From Paracyclopina nana (lineage: Eukaryota; Arthropoda; Copepoda; Cyclopoida; Cyclopettidae), in assembly GCA_019096065.1 (NCBI GenBank), contig JAGUCH010000001.1, positions 11,160,001 through 11,224,000 on the forward strand: DNA of 64,000 nt, read 5' to 3'. Made by a program: the position numbers and the translations under genes. Of the stretch, positions 775 to 59,797 are shown in pieces. Under the pieces are notes generated by a model that did no database searches, was not told the origin of the DNA, and saw only the letters and a list, made by a program, of their open reading frames with translations. Position 1 is the first letter of the stretch. The number at the start of each line of letters is the position of its first letter.

Positions 775-13453
<12,679 letters not shown>

Positions 13454-13495: not shown

Positions 13496-13593
13496 AATAA
13501 AAGTTATATATATACCCTGTCTGCTGTGCATTTGAAACACACTAAATAAACTCAATTGTTTACGATATGTACCAACTTCCAAAATTCTTTATT
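13496..13593. terminator. Facing poly(A) signals of two convergent genes
   Basis: AATAAA on the plus strand at 13496-13501 lies 43 bp after the neuroligin stop codon. TTTATT at 13588-13593 is AATAAA on the minus strand, 140 bp after the stop of the giant SAXO-like gene. With usual cleavage 10-30 bases downstream, the two transcripts end within a few tens of bases of each other. Confidence 0.7.
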
Positions 13594-13732: not shown

Positions 13733-16700
13733 TCAATTGGAAATGGTTGGCAAGAATATCTTGTGGCCAGATGAGGACTGGCGTTCATACTTGAACGGCG
13801 AAGCTCCAGTGCTGAGTCCAGATGCTGGACATTGGTAGTCATGGTAGCCCACACCTGCGAACGACAGCCCAGCTCCACCGTGGAGCACAGTGGACTCGGC
13901 CCAAGTTTTGCGTTTGGAAGCACTAAACGAGCTGCTCTGCTGCTCTTGCCAAGCCAGCTTCTGCTGAGTGCGTTGCTGCTGAAACTGCTGCTGAAACTGG
14001 CGCTGTTGCTGCTGACTGGCCGTTGACCATGTGGTGGCTGCAGCAGCAGATTGCTTTGACATCACAGCTTGCTGTTGATACTGTCTTGATTCACTTTGCG
14101 CGGAATTTGACCAGCGCTGATAGTCCTATTTCAAAAAAATAATTGTCATAATTCCAATATTTGTATATTTGTATTACCTGTTGCTGCCCAGTGCCAAAGT
14201 AATTGCTTGAATTGGTGTATGAATGGTTGACAGCAGCATTGGCAGATGATTGCCTTCGATGAGAGTCGATGACAGACACATCCTTTTGAACGCCAATTTG
14301 GACACCAGCACTCTCTCTGAGGCTGCTGGCGAACTTGTCGGTATTGATAGCCTTGATGGCTGCCTCTTGGTCGGTGGACTGAACAACTGTTGAAGCTACA
14401 CCGGTGCTCTTGGTCTGCTTCGTCACGGACGCCTTCGATGACGAGACAGAGGCTACAGTTGTGGACTTCTTAGTTGTTTGACGCTGAGCTTCCCTCTCCT
14501 CAATTGCTCGCATGGTTGAGGAAGAGTCCTCACCAATCACTATTGAGGATTTGACATCCTTGCGAGCACCTTTAGATGACGCATAGTTCACCTTCTGAAT
14601 GGCTTTGGATGCACTGCGTGCCTCACTCATCATCTCCATGGATCCCTCCATTTTGAGGTTATCTTGGCGCCGGACAACTGCAGCTCTCTCACCAGGAAGC
14701 ACAGCTCCTTGGTTGCGATTCATATCCAGAGCTCCCTCCATTTTCAAGTTGTCTTGGTGCTTGACTGCTTTGACTCGCTCTCCCATCTTGGCTTCTGCCT
14801 TCATTCGTCCTTCAAATGTGCCTTCAATTGTGAGGTTGTCCTTGGCTCGCACAACTTCTGCTCTTTCTCCCTTGACTGCTTCTTTAGAGGATCTCCTACC
14901 TTGAAACGTGCCTTCTAGCTTGAGATTGTCTTGGTGCTTCACTACTTGAGCTCTCTCACCCCTGAGCATTTTGGTTTCCTTTGTCCTGGATTCAAAACTG
15001 CCTTCTAAGAAGAGGTTGTCTTGGTGCTTTTTTACAGTGGCACGTTCACCTTGAGTGGTAGCTAATTCTTTTCTATGAGCTTCCATAGTTCCTTCAAGCG
15101 CCAGGTTATCCTTATGGCGCACGGCGACAGCTCGATCGCCACGCGCAAAGGATTGGCCCTTTACTCTTTTCCCCTCAAATGTTCCTTCCATCTTTAGATT
15201 GTCGCTGTGCTTGACAATTGAAGCTCTTTCTCCCTTCAAAACTGTTGCAGTCTGCTTGTGCATTGAATGTTCTCCTTCCAATGTTAGATTGTCATGATGT
15301 CTTGACACCTCAGCCCGCTCTCCATGCGTACTTTGGAAGTAGTCTTGGGACCGACCTGAAACAATAACTTCAATTTGAGAAATGGTTTTTTCTTTAAATA
15401 AAACTGAATTCATAATTGCATAAAAAAGTCTCAGACTGTGAGCTAAAAGCCTTACTTGAAATCATATAGCCTGGAAGCAATCAAGTTGCCCTGACTGTTG
15501 TTTCCAAAAGCAGCTTTTTTGAAAGAACCTGTCACATTTAAACTTCTCAAATCTATTTACGTCAATTAACCTTACCCTCAATTTGGCCCTCAAGTCTCAA
15601 ATTGTCAGCATGCACCACAGTTTGACTGCGCTCCCCTTTTGTGGCCCACTCCTTCTTTGTGGCATCTAGTTCACCAGATAGCTTCAGATTGTCAGGGTGC
15701 CTCACAACCTTAGCCCTGTCTCCAGGAGACCATTTGGACTCTTGCTTGCCAGTAAAGCTACCTTCAGGAAACAAATTATCTGGATGCTTCACAGGTTTTG
15801 ACTTTTCACCAGGAGCCCAATCAGGCAACTCCCTCTTCTTGAATTCTCCCTCTGGCTTCAAGTTATCAGGATGCTTGATTACTGGCGCCCTTTCTCCAGG
15901 TGCCCATTGATCCTTCAAGCGACCAGTAAACTCTCCCTCTACCTTCAAATTGTCAGCGTGCTTAGCTACCAATGCTCTTTCTCCCTTGATGGCCCATTCT
16001 TTCTTGGTAATTTCAAAGGAACCATCCAAGCACAAATTATCTTCTCTCTTTGCAGCAGTCACACGCTCACCTGGTGTCCAAGCATCTGTCTGTCTTTTCT
16101 CAAAATCACCTTCTGGATGCAGATTGTCAGGTCTCTTCACTATAGGTGCTCGATCTCCTGGTGCCCATTGCTCAGAGTGTTTAGCTTCAAAAGATCCCTC
16201 CAGATGAAGGTTGTCAGACCTTTTTACTACAGGAGCTCTTTCACCTGGAGCCCAATCATGTTGGGGCCGTTTCTCGAAATCTCCCTCTGGCTTAAGATTG
16301 TCCGGTCTTTTCACCACTGGTGCCCTTTCACCAGGAGACCATCCGTCTAATTTTCTTTTCTCAAAGTCTCCCTGCATAACAAGATTGTCTTCATGTTTCA
16401 AAGTTTGCATTCGTTCGCCTTTTGTTGCCCATTCTTTCCTGACAGTCTCCATTTCACCTTCCATGAAAAGATTATCCTGTCTTTTCACCAATTCAGCTCT
16501 CTCCCCTGGAGCCCACAAGTTAACCTTTCTCGACTCAAAGGATCCTTCACTTTTGAGATTATCTTCATGGCGTACAACTTGCATTCTTTCGCCATTGGTT
16601 GCCCACTCTTTTCTGGTTGCATCAAACTGGCCTTCCATATGAAGGTTATCTTGTCTGATGACCACAGCTGCCCTCTCACCAGGAGCCCACTCTTGTGGCT

Positions 16701-19700
16701 TTCTCTGGTCAAAGTCACCCTCAGGCTTGAGGTTGTCAGCTCTCTTCACAACTGGAGCCCTCTCACCTGGGGCCCATTGCTCTTGAGGTCTGTCAGCAAA
16801 CTTGCCCTCTGGATGAAGGTTGTCTGGCCTCTTCACAACTGGAGCTCTTTCTCCTGGTGCCCATTCCTGGGTCTTCCTCTGGTCAAAGTCACCCTCAGGT
16901 TTGAGGTTGTCAGCTCTCTTGACAACAGCAGCTCTTTCACCTGGAGCCCATTGTTCAGTGTGCCTTTGCTCAAAAGCACCCTCAGAGTGCAGGTTGTCTT
17001 GTCTCTTGACCACAGCTGCCCTTTCACCAGGAGCCCACTCTTGTGGCTTTCTCTGGTCAAAATCACCCTCAGGCTTGAGGTTGTCAGCTCTCTTCACAAC
17101 TGGAGCCCTCTCACCTGGGGCCCATTGCTCTTGAGGTCTGTCAGCAAACTTGCCCTCTGGATGAAGGTTGTCTGGCCTCTTCACAACTGGAGCTCTTTCT
17201 CCTGGTGCCCATTCCTGGGTCTTCCTCTGGTCAAAGTCACCCTCAGGTTTGAGGTTGTCAGCTCTCTTGACAACAGCAGCTCTTTCACCTGGAGCCCATT
17301 GTTCAGTGTGCCTTTGCTCAAAAGCACCCTCAGAGTGCAGGTTGTCTTGTCTCTTGACCACAGCTGCCCTCTCACCAGGAGCCCACTCTTGTGGCTTTCT
17401 CTTGTCAAAGTCACCCTCAGGCTTGAGGTTGTCAGCTCTCTTCACAACTGGAGCCCTCTCACCTGGGGCCCATTGCTCTTGAGGTCTGTCAGCAAACTTG
17501 CCCTCTGGATGAAGGTTGTCTGGCCTCTTCACAACTGGAGCTCTTTCTCCTGGTGCCCATTCCTGGGTCTTCCTCTGGTCAAAGTCACCCTCAGGTTTGA
17601 GGTTGTCAGCTCTCTTGACAACAGCAGCTCTTTCACCTGGAGCCCATTGTTCAGTGTGCCTTTGCTCAAAAGCACCCTCAGAGTGCAGGTTGTCTTGTCT
17701 CTTGACCACAGCTGCCCTCTCACCAGGAGCCCACTCTTGTGGCTTTCTCTGGTCAAAGTCACCCTCAGGCTTGAGGTTGTCAGCTCTCTTCACAACTGGA
17801 GCCCTCTCACCTGGGGCCCATTGCTCTTGAGGTCTGTCAGCAAACTTGCCCTCTGGATGAAGGTTGTCTGGCCTCTTCACAACTGGAGCTCTTTCTCCTG
17901 GTGCCCATTCCTGGGTCTTCCTCTGGTCAAAGTCACCCTCAGGTTTGAGGTTGTCAGCTCTCTTGACAACAGCAGCTCTTTCACCTGGAGCCCATTGTTC
18001 AGTGTGCCTTTGCTCAAAAGCACCCTCAGAGTGCAGGTTGTCTTGTCTCTTGACCACAGCTGCCCTCTCACCAGGAGCCCACTCTTGTGGCTTTCTCTGG
18101 TCAAAATCACCCTCAGGCTTGAGGTTGTCAGCTCTCTTCACAACTGGAGCCCTCTCACCTGGGGCCCATTGCTCTTGAGGTCTGTCAGCAAACTTGCCCT
18201 CTGGATGAAGGTTGTCTGGCCTCTTCACAACTGGAGCTCTTTCTCCTGGTGCCCATTCCTGGGTCTTCCTCTGGTCAAAGTCACCCTCAGGTTTGAGGTT
18301 GTCAGCCCTCTTGACAACAGCAGCTCTTTCACCTGGAGCCCATTGTTCAGTGTGCCTTTGCTCAAAAGCACCCTCAGAGTGCAGGTTGTCTTGTCTCTTG
18401 ACCACTGCTGCCCTCTCACCAGGAGCCCACTCTTGTGGCTTTCTCTGGTCAAAATCACCCTCAGGCTTGAGGTTGTCAGCTCTCTTCACAACTGGAGCCC
18501 TCTCACCTGGGGCCCATTGCTCATGAGGTCTGTCAGCAAACTTGCCCTCTGGATGAAGGTTGTCTGGCCTCTTCACAACTGGAGCTCTTTCTCCTGGTGC
18601 CCATTCCTGGGTCTTCCTCTGGTCAAAGTCACCCTCAGGTTTGAGGTTGTCAGCTCTCTTGACAACAGCAGCTCTTTCACCTGGAGCCCATTGTTCAGTG
18701 TGCCTTTGCTCAAAAGCACCCTCAGAGTGCAGGTTGTCTTGTCTCTTGACCACAGCTGCCCTCTCACCAGGAGCCCACTCTTGTGGCTTTCTCTGGTCAA
18801 AGTCACCCTCAGGCTTGAGGTTGTCAGCTCTCTTCACAACTGGAGCCCTCTCACCTGGGGCCCATTGCTCTTGAGGTCTGTCAGCAAACTTGCCCTCTGG
18901 ATGAAGGTTGTCTGGCCTCTTCACAACTGGAGCTCTTTCTCCTGGTGCCCATTCCTGGGTCTTCCTCTGGTCAAAGTCACCCTCAGGTTTGAGGTTGTCA
19001 GCTCTCTTGACAACAGCAGCTCTTTCACCTGGAGCCCATTGTTCAGTGTGCCTTTGCTCAAAAGCACCCTCAGAGTGCAGGTTGTCTTGTCTCTTGACCA
19101 CTGCTGCCCTCTCACCAGGAGCCCACTCTTGTGGCTTTCTCTGGTCAAAATCACCCTCAGGCTTGAGGTTGTCAGCTCTCTTCACAACTGGAGCCCTCTC
19201 ACCTGGGGCCCATTGCTCATGAGGTCTGTCAGCAAACTTGCCCTCTGGATGAAGGTTGTCTGGCCTCTTCACAACTGGAGCTCTTTCTCCTGGTGCCCAT
19301 TCCTGGGTCTTCCTCTGGTCAAAGTCACCCTCAGGTTTGAGGTTGTCAGCCCTCTTGACAACTGCAGCTCTTTCACCTGGAGCCCATTGTTCAGTGTGCC
19401 TTTGCTCAAAAGCACCCTCAGAGTGCAGGTTGTCTTGTCTCTTGACCACTGCTGCCCTCTCACCAGGAGCCCACTCTTGTGGCTTTCTCTGGTCAAAGTC
19501 ACCCTCAGGCTTGAGGTTGTCAGCTCTCTTCACAACTGGAGCCCTCTCACCTGGGGCCCATTGCTCATGAGGTCTGTCAGCAAACTTGCCCTCTGGATGA
19601 AGGTTGTCTGGCCTCTTCACAACTGGAGCTCTTTCTCCTGGTGCCCATTCCTGGGTCTTCCTCTGGTCAAAGTCACCCTCAGGTTTGAGGTTGTCAGCTC

Positions 19701-22700
19701 TCTTGACAACAGCAGCTCTTTCACCTGGAGCCCATTGTTCAGTGTGCCTTTGCTCAAAAGCACCCTCAGAGTGCAGGTTGTCTTGTCTCTTGACCACAGC
19801 TGCCCTTTCACCAGGAGCCCACTCTTGTGGCTTTCTCTGGTCAAAATCACCCTCAGGCTTGAGGTTGTCAGCTCTCTTCACAACTGGAGCCCTCTCACCT
19901 GGGGCCCATTGCTCTTGAGGTCTGTCAGCAAACTTGCCCTCTGGATGAAGGTTGTCTGGCCTCTTCACAACTGGAGCTCTTTCTCCTGGTGCCCATTCCT
20001 GGGTCTTCCTCTGGTCAAAGTCACCCTCAGGTTTGAGGTTGTCAGCTCTCTTGACAACAGCAGCTCTTTCACCTGGAGCCCATTGTTCAGTGTGCCTTTG
20101 CTCAAAAGCACCCTCAGAGTGCAGGTTGTCTTGTCTCTTGACCACAGCTGCCCTCTCACCAGGAGCCCACTCTTGTGGCTTTCTCTTGTCAAAGTCACCC
20201 TCAGGCTTGAGGTTGTCAGCTCTCTTCACAACTGGAGCCCTCTCACCTGGGGCCCATTGCTCATGAGGTCTGTCAGCAAACTTGCCCTCTGGATGAAGGT
20301 TGTCTGGCCTCTTCACAACTGGAGCTCTTTCTCCTGGTGCCCATTCCTGGGTCTTCCTCTGGTCAAAGTCACCCTCAGGTTTGAGGTTGTCAGCTCTCTT
20401 GACAACAGCAGCTCTTTCACCTGGAGCCCATTGTTCAGTGTGCCTTTGCTCAAAAGCTCCCTCAGAGTGCAGGTTGTCTTGTCTCTTGACCACAGCTGCC
20501 CTTTCACCAGGAGCCCACTCTTGTGGCTTTCTCTGGTCAAAGTCACCCTCAGGCTTGAGGTTGTCAGCTCTCTTCACAACTGGAGCCCTCTCACCTGGGG
20601 CCCATTGCTCTTGAGGTCTGTCAGCAAACTTGCCCTCTGGATGAAGGTTGTCTGGCCTCTTCACAACTGGAGCTCTTTCTCCTGGTGCCCATTCCTGGGT
20701 CTTCCTCTGGTCAAAGTCACCCTCAGGTTTGAGGTTGTCAGCTCTCTTGACAACAGCAGCTCTTTCACCTGGAGCCCATTGTTCAGTGTGCCTTTGCTCA
20801 AAAGCACCCTCAGAGTGCAGGTTGTCTTGTCTCTTGACCACAGCTGCCCTCTCACCAGGAGCCCACTCTTGTGGCTTTCTCTGGTCAAAATCACCCTCAG
20901 GCTTGAGGTTGTCAGCTCTCTTCACAACTGGAGCCCTCTCACCTGGGGCCCATTGCTCTTGAGGTCTGTCAGCAAACTTGCCCTCTGGATGAAGGTTGTC
21001 TGGCCTCTTCACAACTGGAGCTCTTTCTCCTGGTGCCCATTCCTGGGTCTTCCTCTGGTCAAAGTCACCCTCAGGTTTGAGGTTGTCAGCCCTCTTGACA
21101 ACTGCAGCTCTTTCACCTGGAGCCCATTGTTCAGTGTGCCTTTGCTCAAAAGCACCCTCAGAGTGCAGGTTGTCTTGTCTCTTGACCACAGCTGCCCTCT
21201 CACCAGGAGCCCACTCTTGTGGCTTTCTCTGGTCAAAATCACCCTCAGGCTTGAGGTTGTCAGCTCTCTTCACAACTGGAGCCCTCTCACCTGGGGCCCA
21301 TTGCTCATGAGGTCTGTCAGCAAACTTGCCCTCTGGATGAAGGTTGTCTGGCCTCTTCACAACTGGAGCTCTTTCTCCTGGTGCCCATTCCTGGGTCTTC
21401 CTCTGGTCAAAGTCACCCTCAGGTTTGAGGTTGTCAGCTCTCTTGACAACAGCAGCTCTTTCACCTGGAGCCCATTGTTCAGTGTGCCTTTGCTCAAAAG
21501 CACCCTCAGAGTGCAGGTTGTCTTGTCTCTTGACCACAGCTGCCCTCTCACCAGGAGCCCACTCTTGTGGCTTTCTCTGGTCAAAGTCACCCTCAGGCTT
21601 GAGGTTGTCAGCTCTCTTCACAACTGGAGCCCTCTCACCTGGGGCCCATTGCTCATGAGGTCTGTCAGCAAACTTGCCCTCTGGATGAAGGTTGTCTGGC
21701 CTCTTCACAACTGGAGCTCTTTCTCCTGGTGCCCATTCCTGGGTCTTCCTCTGGTCAAAGTCACCCTCAGGTTTGAGGTTGTCAGCTCTCTTGACAACAG
21801 CAGCTCTTTCACCTGGAGCCCATTGTTCAGTGTGCCTTTGCTCAAAAGCACCTTCAGAGTGCAGGTTGTCTTGTCTCTTGACCACAGCTGCCCTTTCACC
21901 AGGAGCCCACTCTTGTGGCTTTCTCTGGTCAAAGTCACCCTCAGGCTTGAGGTTGTCAGCTCTCTTCACAACTGGAGCCCTCTCACCTGGGGCCCATTGC
22001 TCTTGAGGTCTGTCAGCAAACTTGCCCTCTGGATGAAGGTTGTCTGGCCTCTTCACAACTGGAGCTCTTTCTCCTGGTGCCCATTCCTGGGTCTTCCTCT
22101 GGTCAAAGTCACCCTCAGGTTTGAGGTTGTCAGCTCTCTTGACAACAGCAGCTCTTTCACCTGGAGCCCATTGTTCAGTGTGCCTTTGCTCAAAAGCACC
22201 CTCAGAGTGCAGGTTGTCTTGTCTCTTGACCACTGCTGCCCTCTCACCAGGAGCCCACTCTTGTGGCTTTCTCTGGTCAAAGTCACCCTCAGGCTTGAGG
22301 TTGTCAGCTCTCTTCACAACTGGAGCCCTCTCACCTGGGGCCCATTGCTCTTGAGGTCTGTCAGCAAACTTGCCCTCTGGATGAAGGTTGTCTGGCCTCT
22401 TCACAACTGGAGCTCTTTCTCCTGGTGCCCATTCCTGGGTCTTCCTCTGGTCAAAGTCACCCTCAGGTTTGAGGTTGTCAGCTCTCTTGACAACAGCAGC
22501 TCTTTCACCTGGAGCCCATTGTTCAGTGTGCCTTTGCTCAAAAGCACCCTCAGAGTGCAGGTTGTCTTGTCTCTTGACCACAGCTGCCCTCTCACCAGGA
22601 GCCCACTCTTGTGGCTTTCTCTGGTCAAAATCACCCTCAGGCTTGAGGTTGTCAGCTCTCTTCACAACTGGAGCCCTCTCACCTGGGGCCCATTGCTCAT

Positions 22701-25700
22701 GAGGTCTGTCAGCAAACTTGCCCTCTGGATGAAGGTTGTCTGGCCTCTTCATCACTGGAGCTCTTTCTCCTGGTGCCCATTCCTGGGTCTTCCTCTGGTC
22801 AAAGTCACCCTCAGGTTTGAGGTTGTCAGCTCTCTTGACAACAGCAGCTCTTTCACCTGGAGCCCATTGTTCAGTGTGCCTTTGCTCAAAAGCACCCTCA
22901 GAGTGCAGGTTGTCTTGTCTCTTGACCACAGCTGCCCTCTCACCAGGAGCCCACTCTTGTGGCTTTCTCTGGTCAAAGTCACCCTCAGGCTTGAGGTTGT
23001 CAGCTCTCTTCACAACTGGAGCCCTCTCACCTGGGGCCCATTGCTCATGAGGTCTGTCAGCAAACTTGCCCTCTGGATGAAGGTTGTCTGGCCTCTTCAC
23101 AACTGGAGCTCTTTCTCCTGGTGCCCATTCCTGGGTCTTCCTCTGGTCAAAGTCACCCTCAGGTTTGAGGTTGTCAGCTCTCTTGACAACAGCAGCTCTT
23201 TCACCTGGAGCCCATTGTTCAGTGTGCCTTTGCTCAAAAGCACCCTCAGAGTGCAGGTTGTCTTGTCTCTTGACCACAGCTGCCCTCTCACCAGGAGCCC
23301 ACTCTTGTGGCTTTCTCTGGTCAAAGTCACCCTCAGGCTTGAGGTTGTCAGCTCTCTTCACAACTGGAGCCCTCTCACCTGGGGCCCATTGCTCTTGAGG
23401 TCTGTCAGCAAACTTGCCCTCTGGATGAAGGTTGTCTGGCCTCTTCACAACTGGAGCTCTTTCTCCTGGTGCCCATTCCTGGGTCTTCCTCTGGTCAAAG
23501 TCACCCTCAGGTTTGAGGTTGTCAGCTCTCTTGACAACAGCAGCTCTTTCACCTGGAGCCCATTGTTCAGTGTGCCTTTGCTCAAAAGCGCCCTCAGAGT
23601 GCAGGTTGTCTTGTCTCTTGACCACAGCTGCCCTCTCACCAGGAGCCCACTCTTGTGGCTTTCTCTGGTCAAAATCACCCTCAGGCTTGAGGTTGTCAGC
23701 TCTCTTCATAACTGGAGCCCTCTCACCTGGGGCCCATTGCTCTTGAGGTCTGTCAGCAAACTTGCCCTCTGGATGAAGGTTGTCTGGCCTCTTCACAACT
23801 GGAGCTCTTTCTCCTGGTGCCCATTCCTGGGTCTTCCTCTGGTCAAAGTCACCCTCAGGTTTGAGGTTGTCAGCTCTCTTGACAACAGCAGCTCTTTCAC
23901 CTGGAGCCCATTGTTCAGTGTGCCTTTGCTCAAAAGCACCCTCAGAGTGCAGGTTGTCTTGTCTCTTGACCACTGCTGCCCTCTCACCAGGAGCCCACTC
24001 TTGTGGCTTTCTCTGGTCAAAATCACCCTCAGGCTTGAGGTTGTCAGCTCTCTTCACAACTGGAGCCCTCTCACCTGGGGCCCATTGCTCTTGAGGTCTG
24101 TCAGCAAACTTGCCCTCTGGATGAAGGTTGTCTGGCCTCTTCACAACTGGAGCTCTTTCTCCTGGTGCCCATTCCTGGGTCTTCCTCTGGTCAAAGTCAC
24201 CCTCAGGTTTGAGGTTGTCAGCCCTCTTGACAACTGCAGCTCTTTCACCTGGAGCCCATTGTTCAGTGTGCCTTTGCTCAAAAGCACCCTCAGAGTGCAG
24301 GTTGTCTTGTCTCTTGACCATAGCTGCTCTTTCTCCTGGTGCCCAAGCATCCAGCTGCTTTTTTGCAAAGTCTCCTTCTGTTTTTAAGTTATCATGATGC
24401 TTAATTGCTTGCGATCTTTCCCCTTTTGTGGCCCACTCCTGTTTGGAGGCTTCAAATTTTCCCTCCATGTGAAGATTATCTTGTCGTTTCACAACTGCTG
24501 CTCTTTCTCCTGGAGCCCATATTTCTTGTATTTTTGTTGCAAAATTTCCTTCCATTTTTAAGTTGTCATCATGTTTTATCAATGTCACTTTTTCAGATTT
24601 ATGCCATTCTTCTGTTCGTTTTTTTTCAAAGTCTCCTTCTGGTTTTAGATTATCTGCTCTCTTTACAACTTGTGCTCTGTCACCAGGTGCCCATGTGTCT
24701 CTTTGACGTGCTTCAAACTCTCCTTCCATTTTAAGGTTATCTTCATGCTTTACTGCTGCCATTCTCTCTCCTTGGGTTGCCCATACTTGTTTGTTTGTTT
24801 CAATTTGTCCCTCCATGTAAAGGTTGTCTTGCCTTTTTACAACTGCTGCCCTTTCACCTTTAGACCATTGCTGGAGTTGCCTTTTTTCAAACTCTCCTTC
24901 TGGCTTTAAGTTATCTGCCCTTCTTACAACTGTGGCTCTATCACCAGGGGCCCATTGCTCTGTTTCTCGACCTTCAAACAGGCCTTCCATTTTTAGGTTG
25001 TCATCATGTCTCACTGCAGCCATTCGTTCACCTTGAGTTGCCCATTCTTGCCTCCTTCCTTCAAACTGGCCCTCCATGAAGAGATTGTCTTGTCTTTTTG
25101 CAACTGCAGCTCTCTCTCCTTGACTCCATTGCTGGTATTGTCTCTTGTCAAACTCACCCTCTGGTTTCAAGTTGTCTGGTCTTTTGACTATGGGTGCCCT
25201 TTCCCCTGGTGCCCATTTGTCAATTTGTCGTGTCTGAAAGTCCCCTTCAATTTTTAAGTTGTCTTCATGTCTAACAGCTGCCATTCTTTCACCATGAACG
25301 GCCCATTGCTTTCGACTTGATTCTATTTCTCCCTCCATGAAGAGATTGTCTTTTCTTTTTATTACAGCAGCTCTTTCACCTTGGGCCCATTGCTGTGGTT
25401 GTCTTTTATCAAAATCTCCTTCTGGCCTTAGGTTGTCTGACCTCTTAACCATTGGCATTCTTTCTCCTCGTGCCCACTTTTCAGTTTGTCTACCTTGAAA
25501 GTCTCCTTCCATTTTTAGGTTGTCTTTGTGCTTCACTGTAGGCATCCTTTCACCATTTGTAGCCCATTCTTGTTTGTTAGTTTCCATCTGTCCTTCCATG
25601 TGGAGATTGTCTTGTCTTTTGACTACGGCTGCTCTTTCTGCTGGTACCCATTGCTGAGGTTGTCTTTTGTCAAATTCACCTTCAGGTTTGAGATTGTCTC

Positions 25701-28700
25701 CTCTTTTAATTACTGGAGCTTTATCTCCAGGCAACCATTTTTCAGTCAGTCTTCCTTCAAAGTTTCCTTCCATCTTAAGATTGTCTTCATGGCGGATGGC
25801 TTGCATTCTCTCTGCCTGGGTAGCCCACTCTTGTCTGGTGCTTTCAATTTGACCTTCCAAGTATAGGTTATCTTGCCTCTTCACAATTTCAGCTCTTTCT
25901 CCTTTAGCCCATCCTTGGATTTGTCTCTGTTCAAAATTTCCTTCAGGCTTCAGGTTGTCACTTCGCTTTACAATTGAAGCTCGGTCACCTGGAGACCACT
26001 GATCAGTTTGTCTTCCTTGGAACTGGCCCTCCATTTTGAGGTTATCAGAATGCTTGACAGCTTGCATTCTCTCACCTTTGGTTGCCCATTCTTGCTTTGT
26101 CATGTCAATGGTACCTTCCATCCTTAAATTGTCAGAGTGTTTTTGTACATTTACCCTTTCTGCAGCCATCCATTGCTGGGATTCTCTTTTCTCAAAATCT
26201 CCTTCAGGTCTAAGATTGTCTGACCTTTTTACAGCCCTTGCTCTTTCTGCAGGTTCCCATTGTGATGCTTCCCTACTCTCAAATGTACCTTCCATTTTGA
26301 GGTTGTCTTGGTGCTTAACTGCAGCCATTCTTTCACCATTGATTGCCCATTCTTTTCTAGATCCCTCAAACCCACCTTCAGGGTGCAGATTGTCATTGTG
26401 TCTGATAGGCTTGGCCTTTTCTCCGCCAACAAATGGTTCTTTGCTCCTACTAAGCACATCTCCCTCAAGCTTGAGATTATCAGGATGCTTCACTATTGAA
26501 GATCTTTCACCCATCTTCCATTCTCCCAAATGGCGTGACTCAAACTTTCCATCTGAAACTTTCAAGTTATCTTCATGTTTCACCATTGTGGCTTTTTCGG
26601 AGATCTCCAAAGCTTGATTCTTGACTTCTTCAGCTTCTTCCTTAGTCCAAGTTCTTTTCCTTACTGCTCGTTGCTTCCCTGAAGTTGCTGCTTTCAACTC
26701 AAAGCTTGATTGGCTTGATTGGATGACTCTTTTGCTCGCAAATGAAGAAGCTTCTTTTTTGTCGTATTCCACTGACCCTTCAAGTACTAAGTTGTCAGAT
26801 GGTTTTTGAACTTTAGCTCTAAGATCTTTCAAGTCCACAGAGTCCAAAGAGGCATTATTCTGCCTTACAATAGAGCCTCCAACTAGCCTGACTTCGCCAT
26901 GGTTTTGGAAGACCTTACTGGCACTGATGCTCTTTGCATTTATTGTCGAGGCTTCAGAATCCTTGGTGAATGTATTCTGCCTCAACAATTTTGGCCTTGC
27001 ATCAACTTCATCAAGAGTGGCACCAAAAATAGCTGCAACCTCTTGGTCTGCGCTTACTGAAAAGGAAAATAAGGCTGGGTTTATTTCATGATAGGTCAAT
27101 ACTCAATTGATTTCTAGTACAGCTATATAAACACAAGATTGAGTGATATTCAAAACATTAGCTTCTTCAGCCTCCATAAAAGATATGCTTTTTTATAAGC
27201 ATGACCAAGATTGAAAAGGAGTCAATCTACTCTTAGAAGGGATTTTTCCAAACTCACCAATTCATCAAATGACTGTTTCAGAGTGGCACATGTTTTTGCA
27301 ATCGAAAAAGCTAGACTGAGCTAAGAAGAAAAGGGGACAACATGGTTTCAGCTAGTTGAGGGGGGACTTTCTCCCATTTTCGCAGAACACTCTTGACTGA
27401 CATGAACTACACAGGTATGGTGGAGCTATATGCATAGATCCAACAATTGATAAGTTAAGCTCTTGGTTTGTAAATGAATGTAGGTCTGTTCTCAGCAAAC
27501 TCTGGCCGTGAACTAGACAGTGTAGAAAATTTGTGTTATATGTGATTGAGTTGCCATGTTTACTAAGGCCTGCCATGTGCATTTATACTGTGAGAATCGA
27601 GAACAACATTCCTTGCTCGCCTGGCTTCACTTGGAACGAATTATTCATTAAACCATTTTTCATGCCAAAATAACAAAATCTATAAGGGCATAATTTGTTG
27701 CATTCTCACTACGTAATATCAAGAAAATCCTTGCTGGAAACTTTTTCGTACTAGCTTGTCCCACTGCATTGTGTGATTAATGGAACAACACACATAAAAT
27801 TAGCTGAAGCAAAATTAGCCTTACAGCATTGCCATTACCTCCAAGGCCAATAAAGTACTTGAACAGGCCGAAAATAAAATAATCGATTTGCCTCTATTAA
27901 AAGGAAGGGAGCTATAAGAGTAAAAAAGATCCTGCTTTATGCAAGGGAAGATTTGCATTAAAGGACCCTAAGCTGACTTAAGTACATTCCAGAAGCGGCA
28001 TCAAAAAATCCTCGCGGAATTTATTGGACCCAACAAAACCTTTTGGTATAGTTGACCACCAATGAAAAGGTAGTTGGCAAAAAATGGGTAGTTGAATTAC
28101 CCAGAAACTTGGTTTTTAAGAATGCATGGCAAAAATTCACTTGGTTGCCACTACCATTTCCTGTAACTATCTTCCTACTATGTGACAGGCCAAGTGAAAA
28201 CCAAGTACATTTTCATAGAACTACTACCATTTTTCTCACTATGCTGCAACCAGGCCATGAAGGTAGTTTCTAGCAAGTTACAAACTTGGGCAACACCACC
28301 TTTTTTTAACTATGTGCCCATCATGATGGGATGCTGCAAATTGTATTATTCATCTACTATGTTTTTTGTAACTACCTTTTCACGAGTCTGATACTATGTT
28401 CAACGCCTTAGGTGAAGTTGGCATCTAATCTAACTTAGTAAACTGTTCAGAGATGGCTCTGCTAGCAATTGAATAATTTGTGAAATTGTTCTTATCAATA
28501 ACTTTTAATGGTTCTAAGATTTCAAAAATCATCATTAATGAATGTTGTTTAGAACAACATGAAAACTGAGTTAGAAAATATCATGCTTCTCATTTTCAAA
28601 CAAAAGCTGAGATTTTTTTAATATTTCAATACTGTATACTTTGTGTGTGATTCAGTCACTATCATCCACTCTATTATTCTTAACTAATCATTCAGCCTTG

Positions 28701-31700
28701 CTGTCTAAGTTTAAGTTTGATAGTCAGCACCATCTTGCGCATAAATTGAGCGCAGACTGCATGGAACTAACTGCTCATAAGAGGATGCTTGGTTAAAGGG
28801 CCTTGGAGAATAAAATCTGTTACACACTATGTCAACACTAGTGATGTCATCTAAGTTCATGCACCATCAAGTATGCTTGGATGTTTATGTGGACCATGCT
28901 TAAATCAAAATAATGATATGATAATTACATTAATAAATAATCCTTTAACTAACTTACAACTAGGTAGTGCACTAGCAGTTACGTGGTAGTGAACCATGCG
29001 TCTGGTAGCAGCATTATGGTTGAAAGTTTAAAAGTATACACTATCAGTGCACTATGCTTAAATGATATGGTACATCACCAGTGGCTCAAGTCACTTTGAA
29101 ACATAATGCACTATATCATTTTCACTAGCCCCTCACTACACCAACAAGGTGCCATAATCAATTTAATGCGTGTCTCCATTTAAGGGTGGTCAACTAGGCT
29201 GTCATATTTCGTTGGTAAGATAGTTGCAACATAGTTACAGGTTAAAACAGGGTTTTGTTGGGGATGTTTTTCCTCCAAAGCAGCATGATCAATTTTCTTC
29301 TTCCCATAAATACCAGAATCGCACTATAGGCCTAGTGGAATGTGCCTCTAAGAAACGCAATGTGGCGCGCAACTTACGTGAAGCATAATGAGCCTCTCGC
29401 TCAGCTGTTGAAGATGACTTGTGAAACTCCATCGATCCAGATTGGTAGGACTGCAAAAACAAAAAAGATGCTTGTCAACCCACAATTGGTTGGATAACGA
29501 CAATGGCATGTAAACTTGGGCATATATTATAACATACATTACATATACCGTACATGTTACAAAAAAATGGAGCAATATTCTCACCTGCTCAGCTTTTCCT
29601 TTGACAACCAATGAGGAAGACTGAGCCTGATCGGCCATGTGAGTCAATGAGGCTGATTTAGTGATTTTTGCATCGCTTTCCAATCCTCCTGACGTTTTTC
29701 GCGAGGCCTTCCTCAAGCTCGACCTCTCTTCAGAAGCCCGAGCCAAGTAACGCTCTTGTGAGGAGGCTCGTACGTGCTTTTGATGATATTCCACAGCTTC
29801 CTGAAATAGAAAAAAAGAGTGTGAAACTGAACAGCACGCCCTTAAAATGATTGCGGGTCACTCCTCCCAGAAATTTCAAGGCAAGTGAGATTTTAAATTG
29901 GCAAAGGATCAGTTTTCACTGTTGAAGTGGGGCGAAAATAGCCTGATGCACACTCTAGCTTGTTGTTGTACCTGAGCTGCCATTTTTTGCTGCATTTCGG
30001 ATGACATCACAACTTTTGAGCTTGAGGCCACCATTGACTTTCTCGCCTCCGAGGTTGACATGGAAACGGAAGTGGCAGCCATATAGTCAGCTGACGATGA
30101 AGACGTCATCGTCATACTTGTGGAGGCCTCAGTTTGGGACTTGACCATTGATGAGCTCGATCCTGAGGTCAACGCGAGCAAATTGGCACTCAGGGCTTTG
30201 GGCTCCACAATGGCAGTCACACCAGCCGACGTCTCTTTGCTGACCTCGCTACGGAAGGACACTTTTTCCGAGGTCATCATCTCGGCCTTCGCTGAGGCCT
30301 CAATGGACAAAGCCACCGCGGCCGATGGGGCCGTACTGGGCCTATGCTTACATCGGTGACGGCTAGAAGCAATAAATGAAAAATTATTTGGTGTGCTTTT
30401 TTTAGGCTGTGAGGGAATTTCGAGCATCATAACACGAAACTTATTTTAAAACCGTTCATCAACTCCATTCAGATCAGATTTTTTGCTGACGTTGGTTTTT
30501 TAACAATCTTTTGCGATTAGCCAAGTAATACATTTTTAAAATTGTTGATGAAAAAGAGGGCGTAGCAAGGTAAGGATAAAGTATGTTTCATATTTTGCAA
30601 TCTAAAGTAGAGCTTCCTCTTAAAACAGGTTTTTTGATAAAGGGGTGGAGTCGAGGTTAGCAACCATATTTCCTCAAGTATCATGGCTTTCAGCGTAAAA
30701 TTGAGATAAAAGCAGTTATTCGCGTGGCTTCCATGCTATTTGTGACCAATGATATTTGTGAGGAAACAAATGTTGTCCTATTAGCTAGCAGGCGTGGCCC
30801 AAGAAATAAAGTAGGTGACCAGGTGTGGCAATGACAACTTGCCCACAGGTAAAGGAAAAAAAAACATGAATGAAAAGTTTGCTAATATGCGTACTACAAA
30901 AAAAGTTGAAGCTTGTTGGTGACTTTTCACAGGCATGCTTGGAGGCATTTTTATGCAAAAAGGCAATTTTGGCTGGATGAAAATTGAATTGAATTTTCAA
31001 AAAACTGGCAGCTTGACTACATTTTCATTGAAGTGCGTTGAGAATAATTGAGAGATGAAGAACGCAATGTTTTGGGGCGCATTGCATAGAATAAGTGTTT
31101 TCCTTCCCCCAACAATGAAGAACGAAGTGGCCTCAATCATACCAGAAGAAGCAATTTTCAAACTGATCGATGATCGATTGATTGAGTGACTGCCGCAGAT
31201 TCAACAACCAAGCACACACATTCCTACGGTTTGTGGCTTTGACCATTACTTTTCATTTCAGGTCCAAGTGCAACAAAAAAATCATGAAGACCCTTACACC
31301 CTTGGAAACATATGAGTAATTATAATGGAGCAGTAAAGACATTAACATCAACTTGCCAAATGGCTTAAATTCGCTGGTGGGCTAGCTTCTGCGAGTCGTG
31401 CTAAACTTGCTGCTTGAAAACTCATCCTTGCCTTGAGCATTTTCCCAATTTTGAGAAATTGCCACACCTGCAGTTTCATGCCACACTTGTTCAAAGGGGA
31501 AGACACCCACGTGCATTTTCACTCAAAATATTAGTATGCAGAAAACCAGAAATTCTGGGATGGCAATCGCATGCGAAAAGAAATAAATAAAGTGACGTCA
31601 CGTGACCCCTGTTTTGGTATGACTCATCCGATTTTAGTGGGCGCCCACCTGTTTAAATTTGGGCATGTGCGCACACAGGGCAAAACCTGACTTTTAAGCT

Positions 31701-32247
31701 TTTTTGAGGAAGTGTCGATGATTTACAAGGCAAATGCTTAATTCTGGTCTAGTTTGCATGATGCGTGGTTTACCATGGCTTACAGTGCATGACGGCAATA
31801 AATCATGCGGCTACTTACTATATTTACAGCTTTATTGTTGCCCAATCGTTGCTGGTACAACTTCTATCATGATTTTTAGGTAAAATCAAATTGGTCACTC
31901 ATTATTAAGGAATAAAACTATTTCTTTCTTATGAATCTTAATTTACGCAAGGATTTATAGCTAGCTAACAAAATGAACGCACAAATGTCATTAAGATGCG
32001 CACACATTAACTTTTGACACCTGCTTTAATGCCTTTATGATGCTGTATCAACGGCAGCCTGACCAAAGTGAAGAATAGTTGAAAAACTAAGCTGAATAGA
32101 TTAAGTTTGCACTACCCATGGCCGACGAATGGGCTTTGGCAAAGTTGCGTTGATTGCTTACCCGCATGTGCAAATTTGGCATATGCACTTTTCATCCACT
32201 TTCTTGGCCTCCTTGAGGTCAGCGGAGGCTGGTTTATCGGTCTTCAT
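13733..32247 (-). CDS. Giant SAXO-like microtubule-binding repeat protein (about 4,605 aa)
   Basis: Exons in transcript order: 32247-32162, 30362-29972, 29800-29585, 29450-29378, 27056-15576, 15355-14178, 14125-13733; all phases match and the sum is 4,606 codons including stop. Exons 1 and 2 join to give CICQICTCGRHRCKHRP, which closely matches the N-terminal cysteine signature I know from SAXO1/SAXO2 (CICxxCxCGRHxCxH). Residues about 35-255 are Ser/Ala/Lys-rich. From about residue 300 to 4400 the protein is a chain of 29-residue repeats, consensus GERAxVVKRxDNLxPEGxFxxRxxxxWAP, resembling in layout the Mn modules of SAXO and MAP6 proteins that bind microtubules. The tail is Gln-rich. An upstream in-frame ATG at 32256 is an alternative start. 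Exon 15576-27056 is 11.5 kb. The SAXO link is inferred from the cysteine motif; microtubule binding is inferred, not shown. Confidence 0.85.
14640..16649 (-). repeat. C-terminal diverged 29-residue repeats of the giant protein
   Basis: About 20 repeats, 8 in exon 14178-15355 and 12 at the low-coordinate end of exon 15576-27056. All keep DNL-x2-EG at 29-residue spacing but differ strongly in the linker (for example FEGRMKAEAKM, FESRTKETKML). One repeat is split by the intron 15356-15575: joining LEGQIE to GRSQDYFQSTHGERAEV restores the repeat rhythm, which supports this splice. These older-looking copies are not homogenised with the central array. Confidence 0.8.
16650..24325 (-). repeat. Central array: 22 near-identical 348-bp higher-order units
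   Basis: The period is exactly 348 bp (116 codons), visible from identical words every 348 bases between 16820 and 24128. Each unit holds four 29-residue repeats, recognisable by their cores QDNLHSEGAFEQRHTEQ, ADNLKPEGDFDQRKTQE, PDNLHPEGKFADRPQEQ and ADNLKPEGDFDQRKPQE. Units differ at only a few sites: Q or H in RP(Q/H)EQ, Q or K in FD(Q/K)RKP, VVKR or VMKR, and silent changes such as CCACAGCTG or CCACTGCTG. Because 348 is divisible by three, the array expands without breaking the frame. Copy number in an assembly may be unreliable. Confidence 0.95.
24326..26800 (-). repeat. N-terminal diverged repeats with a three-repeat super-period
   Basis: About 28 repeats of 29 residues. They cycle through three types: KHxDNLKMEG, KRxDNLKPEG followed by an FxKRQxQQW linker, and KRQDNLxMEGQ followed by QEWATxGERM. 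The super-period is therefore 87 residues, unlike the 116-residue super-period of the central array. Codon use is more varied and AT-rich than in the array, consistent with greater age. Confidence 0.8.
27057..29377 (-). other. Intron 4 of the giant SAXO-like gene
   Basis: Runs from the donor CAC|GTAAGT (minus strand, 29377) to the acceptor CCTTTTCAG (27057). It joins a 73-bp exon to the 11.5-kb exon. It contains the inverted-repeat element at 28063-28382. No exon is otherwise supported. Confidence 0.65.
28063..28382. mobile_element. Candidate 320-bp MITE-like element
   Basis: The left end TGAAAAGGTAGTTGGCAAAA is matched by the reverse complement of the right end, TGAAAAGGTAGTTACAAAAA. Short words ACTACC and ACTATG recur inside, and GGGTA/TACCC forms a small hairpin near the left end. 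There is no coding capacity. I cannot assign a family, and a target-site duplication is not clear. Confidence 0.45.
30363..32161 (-). other. Intron 1 of the giant SAXO-like gene
   Basis: The donor is GCGG|GTAAGC at 32161-32160 and the acceptor TTGCTTCTAG ends at 30363 on the minus strand. It splits the glycine codon of the cysteine signature. It carries a compact group of CRE, E-box and AP-1 type words at 31593-31626. No other exon is supported. Confidence 0.7.
31593..31626. promoter_or_regulatory. CRE / E-box / AP-1 word cluster
   Basis: TGACGTCA at 31593-31600 overlaps CACGTG at 31599-31604, and TGACTCA follows at 31620-31626. Three perfect bZIP/bHLH consensus sites in 34 bp inside the first intron of the giant gene suggest an enhancer. 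Binding is inferred from the words only. Confidence 0.4.
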
Positions 32248-32256
32248 GGTCAGCAT

Positions 32257-35200
32257 CAAACTAGTAATGCAATTTGATGTGATCCATCTCGTATGAAGAA
32301 AATAAGTTACACTGGTGAATGTGGAGACCTCAAGGTCTTTTCTAATACATGTCTGGGTTTTGATGCTCTGGGCCGCGGCCGCGGTAAAATGTCCATCCAG
32401 GTGTGCGCGCTCTGTACGAACTTGCGAAGCCCCGTGCGCGATAATAAGGATTCCGGCCAGCCATGTCACGCACAAGGTGCTTATATCGAGGTGGAGCATG
32501 ATCCGCTTAGCAGTCGAGACCCAAAGCTCATTTGCATAAAAAGAGCAATTAGAGCCGAAAATGCGCTGAATTTGGTTATGTTTTAGCGGCGCTATCTAGA
32601 TGGTTTGCATTGTCTCCTACTTTTTACACATCCTGCAAAGCAAAACAAAATCCCCAGGTATTATTGACAATTGCAGCCTTATTACTTTTTTAACACAGGT
32701 ATTTTTCTCCCGTCATCCCGTAGCTTGCAGCAGGCATTTCGTGAGTGCATGAATTGATCTTTGATTTTCTCTCAGCCAAGGTAGTCTCCATCAAGGTTTT
32801 TTCAGCTGACTTTTCGTATCGAGGGATTAAACTTTCGGTTACCTACTACCTTGGCTTAATGTCTACCATGTACACTAGTGACTCATATGGCATTGCATTA
32901 TTCATGTTACGCACCCTTACTTGTAGAATGTATAGATTTTTTGTGCCTTTTAGCCTCACCTCCCACTCATATGGTTCTGACTCAGAAACGTTGATGTCAT
33001 TTTGTTGCCTCCAAATCAGGACAAAGCAGGTTTTCAAAAAGAGCCATCGCCAAGTAGCTCACAACTGATAAACCAACAAATGCCAGGCAAAGTGGGCGCA
33101 AAGTCCAGAATGAAATTCTAGCCGCTAATGGTTCTCTTTTGAGATAACGCTTTCTTACAAACAGCGTTATCACATTTCTTTCACCCCATATGGAATCATC
33201 ATGCAATCATGCAGCAGGTATGAATGAACAGAGCGAGCACCGCCAATTTTCAGCTTTCTTTTAAAAACCAAGGACTTTCTCCTCTCCAAATAATGCTTAA
33301 TGGCATGCAATGTTCGCCAAAAGCCCAATCAATTTTGGGTAGAAAAACATGCACATGCTACATACTTCTTTCAGTAAACATAGGACAGCGCTGATTATAT
33401 TTTGGGAACGTTATTGCTTTGGCCATGTTATAAATGCTGTCAAAATGCGAGAACTTTGCTTGGGTGTAGTATGGAAAGGGTTGCTTGATATCTTGTGTAT
33501 CATCTGCCCACTTTGCCATCTACCCACTCGCGTAGACCTGTTTCCTACTAAGAAATACTATCACATTGCTGCAACCTGCAGGCCTAGTATTATGTAGGCC
33601 CAGTAGAAGATTATTGATCATGATCTTCTTTTCGGTTATAAGCCATTTTTGCGTGTGATGCAGTTCAGTGGAGCGGGAAATTTTACCCAGGCCTTTGTGC
33701 ATTATTGCGATAAAGCAATTTTCAAATGCAATATCCAAACTGTAGGTTCTCCTGATTTGACAACTTTCAAGCATGATGTTGTAATTGTTGTTGTTTTAAT
33801 CTAAAAACCCGCCATCTTGCAAGACTTTGAACAACTATTGAAATTCTATACTTTTCAGGTTGATCATTGCCAAAACTATGTAATCTCAACCCAAGACAAG
33901 ATGAATAATGTACGTAAAAACTTTACTGGGTGGCTACAGAGCATATTCAAAAGTTGGATGTAAGGCAATAAATTGGAGGCCAATATTGTTTTTGACCTCT
34001 AACCATAGCCAGGCCGCAGAAGGAAAAAATACGTGGTGCTTAACTGCCCATATATAATAATTTATGAGCCTCTTTTCTGGCCTCTATGGCCATATTAGGC
34101 CGTATTAGGTGTACTTGGTTTTGTATTAATTTCCTATTAACCGGAATTGGATGTGAAACTAGTTGGTGTTTTCATTCCAAATGGATTTACTGCAGCTATG
34201 GCAATTTTGTGGAAATCCCACTTCAGCTTGCTTGAAATGGTTTCAATTTATGCTCTATAATTGGAAATTTTAAGAGAGATTGCGGATTACGAGAATTAAG
34301 GCCACCTGTGATTGGCCTTTAACCAAGCAGAAATTAGAAAGCACTTTCATGCGTGGAAGTTGATATGAAGGTCACATCTCCAATCGATTTAGTCAAGGCC
34401 AAATGCAATCCTCAATGTTTGCCTCCAAGAAGGAAGGCCTTTAATGGCCTTTACGAATCCAGGCAGCAGAATTCACTGAAAATCAATATAATGCAACACT
34501 AACGTTCATGGCCTTGATAAAGAAACGACGAACCTTGTGAATTCAAGTGAGACCATATGTGACATTTTCCCTCGCAATTAAAAAAAATCAAAGGACACGC
34601 GCTGAAAAAAATCATGATAATTTGAAACAACAGTCAAAATATTTAAAAACCAACCCGAATTATTTTTTAGAATTTGATTAACAAAGTATTTGTACCCTGA
34701 TTAGCAATTAATATGGCTGCAAGCTTACAATCACGGCCTGTATTGTCATCACAGTCAGTTTCAATTTATTTATTGTACTTATCAAATAAATGAATAGCTC
34801 TTTTGAGTCAAGTCATTAATTCATCCACCGCAAAATGAGCAAGGTAGCGATGTCATTAAACTGTGCTGGTCTCGCGAACAGATGCATGACAACTCAAGCT
34901 CGATGGTGAGGTTGGGCAAATATTGTAACTGTTGTTGCGTTATTATGAAAGTATGATGGAATTGGGATCTTTTTTCCGAATATTGGAATGATAAAAGAAG
35001 TTCATTATGATAATTCATTATTTCTTCTTTTTTTAGTTTCTTGAAACTGCCTACACAAGAGTTTTTCAAAAATAGCGTTTATCCCTTCTATTCAGCATCA
35101 TGTAGCATTTTAGAATTTTTAAACTTGAATAACATGATTTGTCATTTTCGCGTGTGTAAGCCAGTTTACTAGTTCAACTGGACATACAGTTTACCCAATC

Positions 35201-58721: not shown

Positions 58722-59797
58722 TCAGTTGGCGCCAGTCAAAGACAGCCTCCGAATGTTGGGCTTGTCGTACTCCTCCATGGACATCCTGCGGCCGCCCAAA
58801 GAGTCCCTGGATGACCTTCGCTCCACATTGGGCAAGTCCACTGAGGTGAGCCAGCCAAGGCCCTTGACGAAGAGCAAAATTGAATTGGCCAATTTGCCAG
58901 GTGCCTCATCCATGACCGTGAAGACATCGTCGATCTTCAGCATGGACGTCTTGGTCTTGTCACAGTAGCCGAAAATGGCCTCCATGCCCTTCACATGGCC
59001 GTCAGCCTTGGCCCCAGCCACGAGCATGGTTTCGCAGCGCAATGACTTTTCGATGGTGGGCACGATGTTGGAACGGTTCATGAAAGCTCCCACATACTTG
59101 GACACATTGGCCTGGTTCATCTGCTTTTGGTCTGCAGTCAAGGGCTTCTCTGTGAGCCTGAAGCTCTTCACACGATCCTTCATAATATTGAAGAAGTTGT
59201 ATTTTGATTTGAACAAATGAATGCCTTTTTGAGCAAGTTACCACAAGGTTGTCAATGATGGTCGGTGCAGCTTCATTGGGATTGATGCAGACAATGCCAA
59301 GGCACCTGGAGACGTGCATAGCCCCAAACCTGAGCATAATGTTGGCACCTGCACCTTCACCCAGGCCAACCACACATTTGACTCTCAAATGGTCAAGCAC
59401 GTTGACCAAGTCCTCTCCAATTTCCTGCATGGTGGGAAAAGGCCCATCCAAGTCAGGTGCTCCATCTTCTTGCCCAACCAAATCCACGTGGATGAAGACG
59501 GCCTTTTCACGAATCAAGGACATGGCAGGGGAATTGACAAATCTGATTGAGGTACGAAATACTGGCGAAAAGTGGCACGTAATGATGTTTAGAATTGTAC
59601 CTAAGCCAGGTGGAGTGGTTTACCCCTGTGTCATGGACAGTGAGGAAGGCGCAAAAGTTGTCCTTGGTCTCCTTACTTTGGGCCAGGGACAGGTCACCCT
59701 GGACCCAGACACTCAAAGCTCCAATCCTCTCAGTAGGGATGATGTAGTGGGATACAACATCGCAAGCTGGAACACTCTCTTGGTTTCCGTCTCCCAT
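58722..59797 (-). CDS. NDRG: NDRG-family protein (317 aa)
   Basis: Catalytically inactive alpha/beta-hydrolase of the N-myc downstream-regulated family, linked to differentiation and stress signalling. Exons: 59797-59601, 59542-59242, 59177-58722, phases consistent (318 codons with stop). Family features: VWVQGDLSLAQSKET, AFLTVHDTGVNHSTWLRFVN, HVDLVGQEDGAPDL, FPTMQEIGEDLVNVLDHL, GLGEGAGANIMLRFG and ETMLVAGAKADGHV. The nucleophile motif GEGAG lacks serine, as expected. It most resembles the invertebrate ZK1073.1-type subgroup as I remember it. The 64-bp intron 59178-59241 (GTG|GTAACT to TATGAAG) explains an apparent frame change. The C-terminal tail is basic and Ser-rich (RRSSRDSLGGRRMSMEEY, NIRRLSLTG), with likely phosphorylation sites. 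A minus-strand AATAAA at 58086-58081 would give a 640-bp 3' untranslated region. Confidence 0.88.

Follow-up and report, generated by a model that had tools for sequence, protein, structure and literature searches.

A predicted 4,605-residue protein of the copepod Paracyclopina nana joins a SAXO-type cysteine head to about 135 repeats of 29 residues

Proteins of the SAXO family carry an N-terminal cysteine cluster, motif 1 ([GR][KT]CVC[ESR][LI]CTCGK[HC][KR]C; Dacheux et al. 2012, PMC3280300), and Mn or Mn-like repeats with a threonine or serine at position 6 and a phenylalanine or tyrosine at position 12; a Cys-Pro motif lies in the last, longer Mn-like repeat, at C236-P237 in TbSAXO, whose constructs end at residue 266 (PMC3280300; this and the other papers are cited here and below from excerpts of their text). 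The minimal Mn signature has been given as [TS][TS]x4[YF] (PMC10973386). SPM1 of Toxoplasma shares the SAXO motif and has 32-residue repeats that follow the inner face of a protofilament with a period of 8 nm; each tubulin dimer is predicted in that study to accommodate one repeat (PMC8144581). Here we describe a gene in a 64,000-nucleotide stretch of Paracyclopina nana DNA (hereafter the window; contig JAGUCH010000001.1 of assembly GCA_019096065.1, positions 11,160,001 to 11,224,000 of the forward strand) that is predicted to encode a giant protein with a SAXO-type head and a long interior of 29-residue repeats. On its sequence, the most fitting description is that of a SAXO-derived protein whose repeat domain has diverged or been replaced.

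The relationship to SAXO proteins is clearest at the N-terminus. Residues 19-33 (EKCICQICTCGRHRC) place all five cysteines of motif 1 together with its glycine and histidine, and a comparison by hand finds that 11 of the 15 positions fit the motif. A phmmer search of the PDB with exons 1 and 2 gave three matches up to an E value of 10, the best of which is SAXO1 (E 0.0053) for the head at residues 19-38 (EKCICQICTCGRHRCKHRPS); the remaining two (E 0.14 and 0.54) are also STOP-family chains, each too weak to be useful individually. As a yardstick, full-length human SAXO1 matches the STOP-family chain 9e78_1U at an E value of 0.006 only. The top Pfam family for the head is SAXO1-2 (PF05217; E 0.0025, 17.3 bits, model positions 3-22), and although this score is below the curated cut-off of 26.5 bits, that is to be expected because just 20 of the 474 model positions are shared. 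None of 5000 shuffles equals the score of the local alignment of the head to SAXO1. The cysteine head is thus, by sequence, a genuine SAXO motif 1, as had been proposed in an original prediction made from the letters of the window, and the roughly tenfold expansion over SAXO length proposed there is also seen (4,605 residues against 477 in the SAXO1 chain 8ou0_D). We regard SAXO ancestry of the protein as very probable.

The interior of the protein contains 136 Asp-Asn-Leu (DNL) anchors, whose 135 spacings are of 29 (126), 30 (6), 31 (2), and 75 (1) residues, in agreement with the predicted size of about 4,600 residues and about 135 repeats of 29. The fixed 29-residue pitch that accompanied this prediction describes 126 of the 135 intervals and breaks down at the ends, where the first two intervals are 75 and 30 residues and seven of the last eight are 30 or 31. 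The repeats are further organized into three zones, two that differ in period (87 and 116 residues), where the original prediction had a single one, followed by a degenerate one, all on the minus strand and with coordinates computed by hand. The N-side zone (24307-26394, calculated from residue numbers) comprises units 4-27 and has a three-unit, 87-residue period, with identity at lags 3, 6, and 9 above that of all 2000 permutations (nine lags tested). The central array (16651-24306) consists of 22 copies of a 116-residue, 348-bp unit, each made of four 29-residue repeats, and Tandem Repeats Finder reports a 348-bp unit in 22.1 copies with 98% matches at 16643-24345. The C-side zone (14577-16650) begins with unit 116, ends with the final DNL repeat, and is interrupted by the intron at 15356-15575; its pitch is 29 first and mostly 30-31 later, and a search for a higher-order period in units 116-127 found none. 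An antisense open frame of 2,678 codons lies opposite the array (16351-24387, plus strand), and we did not take it for a gene; it is the mechanical result of near-identical blocks that happen to be open in that frame.

To describe the unit we tabulated 42 repeats where the spacing is 29, namely units 3-31 and 115-127, of which five belong to the array; DNL is constant in this set as the chosen anchor. A glycine at position 7 is invariant in all 42, as are an acidic residue (E or D) at position 21 and a basic one (R or K) at position 22. Tryptophan occupies position 16 in 12 units and position 17 in 29, with phenylalanine in the one other, and [GAS][ED][RK] is nonetheless fixed at positions 20-22 throughout, so that the one-residue shift is compensated inside the unit. 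The repeat region as a whole is charge-neutral, with 730 Lys plus Arg and 743 Asp plus Glu.

The 22 array copies differ by a mean of 3.14 of 348 bases, and 19 of them are distinct. Nine variant codons are synonymous and five non-synonymous, for 74 and 274 sites respectively, and pairs of copies differ on average at 2.12 synonymous and 0.93 non-synonymous codons. These values correspond to a dN/dS of about 0.12, a figure calculated by hand, uncorrected, and derived from pairs that are not independent because the copies exchange sequence. Since the variation is mostly synonymous, the protein sequence of the array looks constrained, and the array seems to have been recently expanded or homogenised with its protein sequence held under constraint. 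Copies eight apart within the array resemble one another beyond chance (13 of 2000 permutations give a value as low, at one of 11 lags tested), which hints at the duplication of a block of eight copies. The higher-order period could also be a functional mark at 24 or 32 nm; this is possible, but unequal crossing-over is a simpler explanation and units 116-127 have no such period.

The coding sequence is predicted as seven exons on the minus strand between 32247 and 13733, giving 13,818 nt (a multiple of three) with a single, terminal stop codon. All six predicted introns have GT-AG boundaries and the reading phases match across every junction, so the proposal of one continuous seven-exon gene stands as a prediction. 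Coding potential was scored with a codon-usage table trained on the other open frames of the window, exon 5 being scored at its two ends only. Each of the seven exons has a positive own-frame score, between 0.08 and 0.26, and the top score among 300 intron windows is -0.026, although the same introns supplied the background table, which favours low intron scores. Exon 1 (32162-32247) contains the start codon, encodes residues 1-28 plus two bases of codon 29, and with them the greater part of the cysteine head; it has a GT donor in phase 2 and the match to the SAXO1 head, and it scores 0.078, with one antisense frame at 0.088. Exon 2 (29972-30362; AG/GT junctions, in frame, score 0.222) completes the cysteine head (GRHRCKHRPST) and continues into a Ser/Thr/Met-rich stretch, and it is followed by exon 3 (29585-29800; AG/GT junctions, 0.209) and exon 4 (29378-29450; AG/GT junctions, 0.246, with one antisense frame at 0.245). 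An antisense frame therefore equals or nearly equals the own-frame score in exons 1 and 4, both of which are short, and the case for these two comes mainly from the head motif and the splice phases.

A 2.3-kb intron separates exon 4 from exon 5 (15576-27056), which is 11,481 nt long, stop-free, bounded by AG/GT junctions, and contains the bulk of the repeats, with scores of 0.078 and 0.084 at its ends. No methionine precedes its first DNL, as read from the sequence, and exon 5 thus needs an upstream start. Exon 6 (14178-15355; AG/GT junctions, 0.204) encodes the final degenerate repeats and a Ser/Thr-rich tail, and exon 7 (13733-14125; AG acceptor, 0.262) encodes a Gln-rich tail, a Cys-Pro pair, and the stop codon at 13735-13733. 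A poly(A) signal, AATAAA, can be read on the same strand at 13588-13593, about 140 nt beyond the stop. At the other end, the frame of exon 1 stays open upstream (32158-32595, minus strand) and includes an in-frame methionine; the residues after it are hydrophobic and look, by eye, like a signal peptide. This open stretch is probably 5' untranslated sequence and, less probably, an extended N-terminus.

The explanation that we favour, with a probability of roughly 0.5 as a whole, is that the protein is a SAXO-derived tape that runs along a microtubule. A SAXO-family animal gene has kept its N-terminal cysteine head, as the sequence shows, and perhaps, on weaker evidence, its C-terminal Cys-Pro tail, while tandem duplication presumably turned its interior into about 135 units of 29 residues. 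The repeats are homogenised as 87- and 116-residue blocks, with the protein sequence apparently held by selection. The product would follow a single protofilament in a long-lived microtubule, perhaps on the luminal side like its SAXO relatives; if each tubulin dimer (about 8.2 nm) is matched by one 29-residue unit, it would span about 1.1 micrometres and might bind the lattice together. In favour of this explanation we count the head match, the distribution of the cysteines, the mostly synonymous variation of the array, the compensated tryptophan shift, and the analogy with SPM1. Binding, pitch, and a role as a ruler are all inferred from SAXO ancestry and by analogy with SPM1, and they differ in strength: that the protein binds microtubules lengthwise we consider an even chance, and that each unit corresponds to one dimer is a tentative proposal, rather doubtful than probable. 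The dimensions are compatible, in that a 29-residue unit with seven residues in helix and the others extended could reach up to about 9 nm, which is enough for a dimer, and 135 units at dimer pitch amount to about 1.1 micrometres. Microtubule proteins of the tau type, which bind the outer surface, have basic repeats; the repeat region here is neutral, unlike these, and a luminal position fits slightly better. An elaboration, in which a SAXO descendant re-invented a lattice-binding repeat to yield a tape of about 1.1 micrometres whose three- and four-unit blocks (about 24 and 32 nm) mark register along the microtubule and so serve other binders as a ruler, is speculative and on balance improbable.

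Other results weigh against the microtubule tape. That the 29-residue repeat is the SAXO Mn module, as the original prediction implies, was not supported. The [TS][TS]x4[YF] signature occurs in none of the 135 units, and its four matches in the whole protein (at residues 59, 116, 4580, and 4593) are all outside the repeats. In profile-profile comparisons with 11 Mn repeats of SAXO1, column-shuffled decoys scored as well in 13 of 200 cases for A-type units and 28 of 200 for B-type units, and when the repeats were aligned directly to the middle of SAXO1 the score was matched by 157 of 300 shuffles. Queries of the PDB and Pfam with the repeat, and of NCBIfam with two segments, returned nothing relevant, with SAXO absent from the matches. 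AlphaFold2 run on a four-unit segment of 125 residues, with ten rows of repeats from the window, gave a mean pLDDT of 51.3 and a pTM of 0.11; this is not a usable structure and so does not support an Mn-like helix. Microtubule binding by TbSAXO is moreover attributed to its Mn-like repeats and not to its head (PMC3280300), so the ancestry of the head alone does not show that the repeats bind. The similarity of the tail is marginal: when it is compared with the final 80 residues of SAXO1, 147, 443, or 797 of 5000 shuffles equal its score, depending on the gap cost, as do 166 of 5000 in a separate run, and against all of SAXO1 it is insignificant (844 of 5000 shuffles for its last 60 residues, 818 of 2000 for its last 130).

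Some of these negatives have their own limits. The Mn unit is considered too short and too divergent for profile hidden Markov models by the authors of PMC10973386, and a distant descent of the repeat from Mn could for this reason be missed. The low-confidence AlphaFold2 model is compatible with an extended binder, and proves nothing. B-type units, of which there are 12 (for example ETNKQEW), could be read as the Mn helix TTxKxDY in which an acidic residue has replaced the first threonine and tryptophan the tyrosine, a candidate that we set aside because 28 of 200 decoys do equally well.

Further searches for relatives of the repeat were similarly unproductive. The top PDB matches (ZBED3 chains at E 0.021, DnaK at E 0.19, and Tm1382 at E 0.29) were treated as chance, and one further PDB search with the repeat gave zero matches. 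A pattern search of prokaryote and viral collections matched 14 stretches, none of which tblastn confirmed as a relative, and a second pattern search of these collections found none; one DNA pattern had zero matches there, and another matched one stretch in a bacterial (Hathewaya) contig, also treated as chance. In the Pfam scan of the head and repeat segments, a single family exceeds its curated threshold, namely LptD_N on the repeats (25.4 against 20.4 bits, at 25000-27054, minus strand). We reject it as a composition artefact, as this is a bacterial outer-membrane family that falls below the threshold on the C-side repeats and, in a second Pfam scan, matches 1 of 23 members. Profile searches thus provide no convincing case for placing the repeat in an unrelated family, and the apparent false positive is of relevance to annotation pipelines. 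The heptapeptides DNLKPEG, DNLKMEG, DNLRPEG, DNLRMEG, DNLKLEG, and DNLRLEG were not found in open-licence papers, and among the matches listed from that literature no title concerns a giant repeat protein with a SAXO head.

At the C-terminus, the Cys-Pro pair (C4574-P4575, at 13826-13831 on the minus strand) lies 32 residues from the end and has no surrounding Mn repeat. It provides one of only seven cysteines in the protein, five being in the head and one in a repeat. Searching the PDB with the tail gave no SAXO match, and retention of a SAXO-type Cys-Pro tail is suggestive only. Composition is an ambiguous guide to membership of the SAXO family, for which proline contents of 11.6-20% and isoelectric points of 8.25-9.05 are given (PMC3280300): the whole protein has a pI of 8.23, just outside this range, and 7.1% proline, clearly outside it, and the repeat region alone has a pI of 6.94 and 7.9% proline.

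These observations leave room for other explanations. The protein might be SAXO-derived with an interior that is a flexible spacer or projection, such that attachment is confined to the ends or to a few units, and the number of repeats, free to rise and fall, matters little. There is a precedent in Futsch, whose ends are conserved while the central repeats of fly and honeybee differ (PMC2821913), and the lack of an Mn signature, the balance of charges, and the lack of a predicted fold all suit a spacer; however, G7 and the [ED][RK] pair at positions 21-22 are conserved in all 42 units and the array varies mostly at synonymous sites, which suggests that each unit contacts something specific, and we consider a spacer unlikely, if worth serious attention. 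Alternatively, the head could have been kept while the repeats bind a partner other than microtubules, such as another filament of the cytoskeleton or a scaffold found in muscle or sensory cells, as the want of a convincing family match in Pfam, NCBIfam, and the PDB would allow, but the SAXO relatives described in PMC3280300, PMC8144581, and PMC10973386 act on microtubules, and a non-microtubule partner is correspondingly improbable.

Other possibilities concern the locus itself. Splicing is predicted from DNA alone, the 2.3-kb intron separates head from repeats, and the short exons 1 and 4 are not clearly above their best antisense frames, so that exons 1-4 and 5-7 could belong to separate genes, or the repeat gene could start elsewhere. 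That phases agree at all of the GT-AG junctions, that exons 2, 3, 6, and 7 are clearly coding-biased in frame, and that exon 5 lacks a methionine before its first DNL make such an error in the gene model quite unlikely. That the array arose in assembly, or that it is non-coding satellite DNA, is very unlikely indeed: 22 near-identical 348-bp copies are open to miscounting during assembly, but 19 of them are distinct, they vary mostly at synonymous positions, and the diverged units on either side are open and in register.

If the repeats of the SAXO-derived protein do bind tubulin, it would be a very long single lattice binder in which one polypeptide contacts up to 135 dimers, and it would offer a direct test of the extent to which a fixed-pitch repeat protein can set microtubule length, lattice spacing, or stability. 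More generally, the locus suggests that members of a family defined by a head plus Mn repeats can retain the head while the repeats change beyond recognition, and family counts based on Mn would miss such members.

Several other features were noted in the window. The convergent neighbour at 8030-13453 (plus strand) contains exons of the carboxylesterase family by Pfam, and the open frame downstream of these (12257-13453, plus strand) has no family match and is presumably neuroligin-like. An open frame rich in glutamine, at 36709-38124 (plus strand), contains tandem repeats of 33 bp and 27 bp. Pfam matches further along are a Kelch open frame at 39587-40603 (minus strand), with a sub-threshold PAN match, a sodium:solute symporter exon at 55538-56227 (plus strand), an Ndr family member at 58722-59619 (minus strand), and an immunoglobulin V-set exon at 61864-62217 (plus strand). 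No RNA families were found within the window at gathering thresholds.

Compared with SAXO1, the protein has in common the N-terminal cysteine motif C-x-C-x2-C-x-C-G-[RK]-H-x-C, and with the SAXO family and SPM1 it shares a plan of linear repeats between head and tail and a basic overall pI (8.23 here); like TbSAXO it has a Cys-Pro pair near the C-terminus. It differs in scale, with 4,605 residues against 266 in TbSAXO and 477 in the SAXO1 chain, and 135 units against 6 in TbSAXO, 12 in mouse SAXO1, and 5-13 in SPM1 and its homologues. The unit, at 29 residues, is shorter than the approximately 33-35 of SAXO proteins (an Mn of 15 plus an inter-repeat of 18-20; PMC3280300) or the 32 of SPM1, and the protein departs from the SAXO family in lacking the Mn signature, in its lower proline content (7.1% against 11.6-20%), and in its neutral repeat region. 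Repeats of similar size are found in EFHB/FAP21 and CFAP77, where GFG tandem repeats of about 31 residues each span a tubulin pair along the protofilament (PMC10973386); the likeness is one of description. Their signature Gly-Phe-Gly is absent from the unit described here, which has E-G-x-F instead. Among giant proteins, MARP-1 and MARP-2 of Trypanosoma brucei are microtubule-associated proteins of about 320 kDa with about 50 conserved 38-residue tandem repeats, and the excerpted text makes no mention of a SAXO head (PMC12114266). They are alike in architecture, the only aspect compared, as giant repeat proteins of microtubules, and differ in repeat length and in their protozoan host. The insect MAP1B homologue Futsch likewise has a long, lineage-specific tandem repeat interior between conserved ends, with 66 repeats of about 37 residues in the fly and two other kinds in the honeybee (PMC2821913). 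By eye the fly repeat is unrelated to the one described here. The ends of Futsch are of the MAP1 type and not SAXO. Giant repeat-built microtubule proteins such as MARP-1 and Futsch are already known, and a SAXO-headed one of this size is new.

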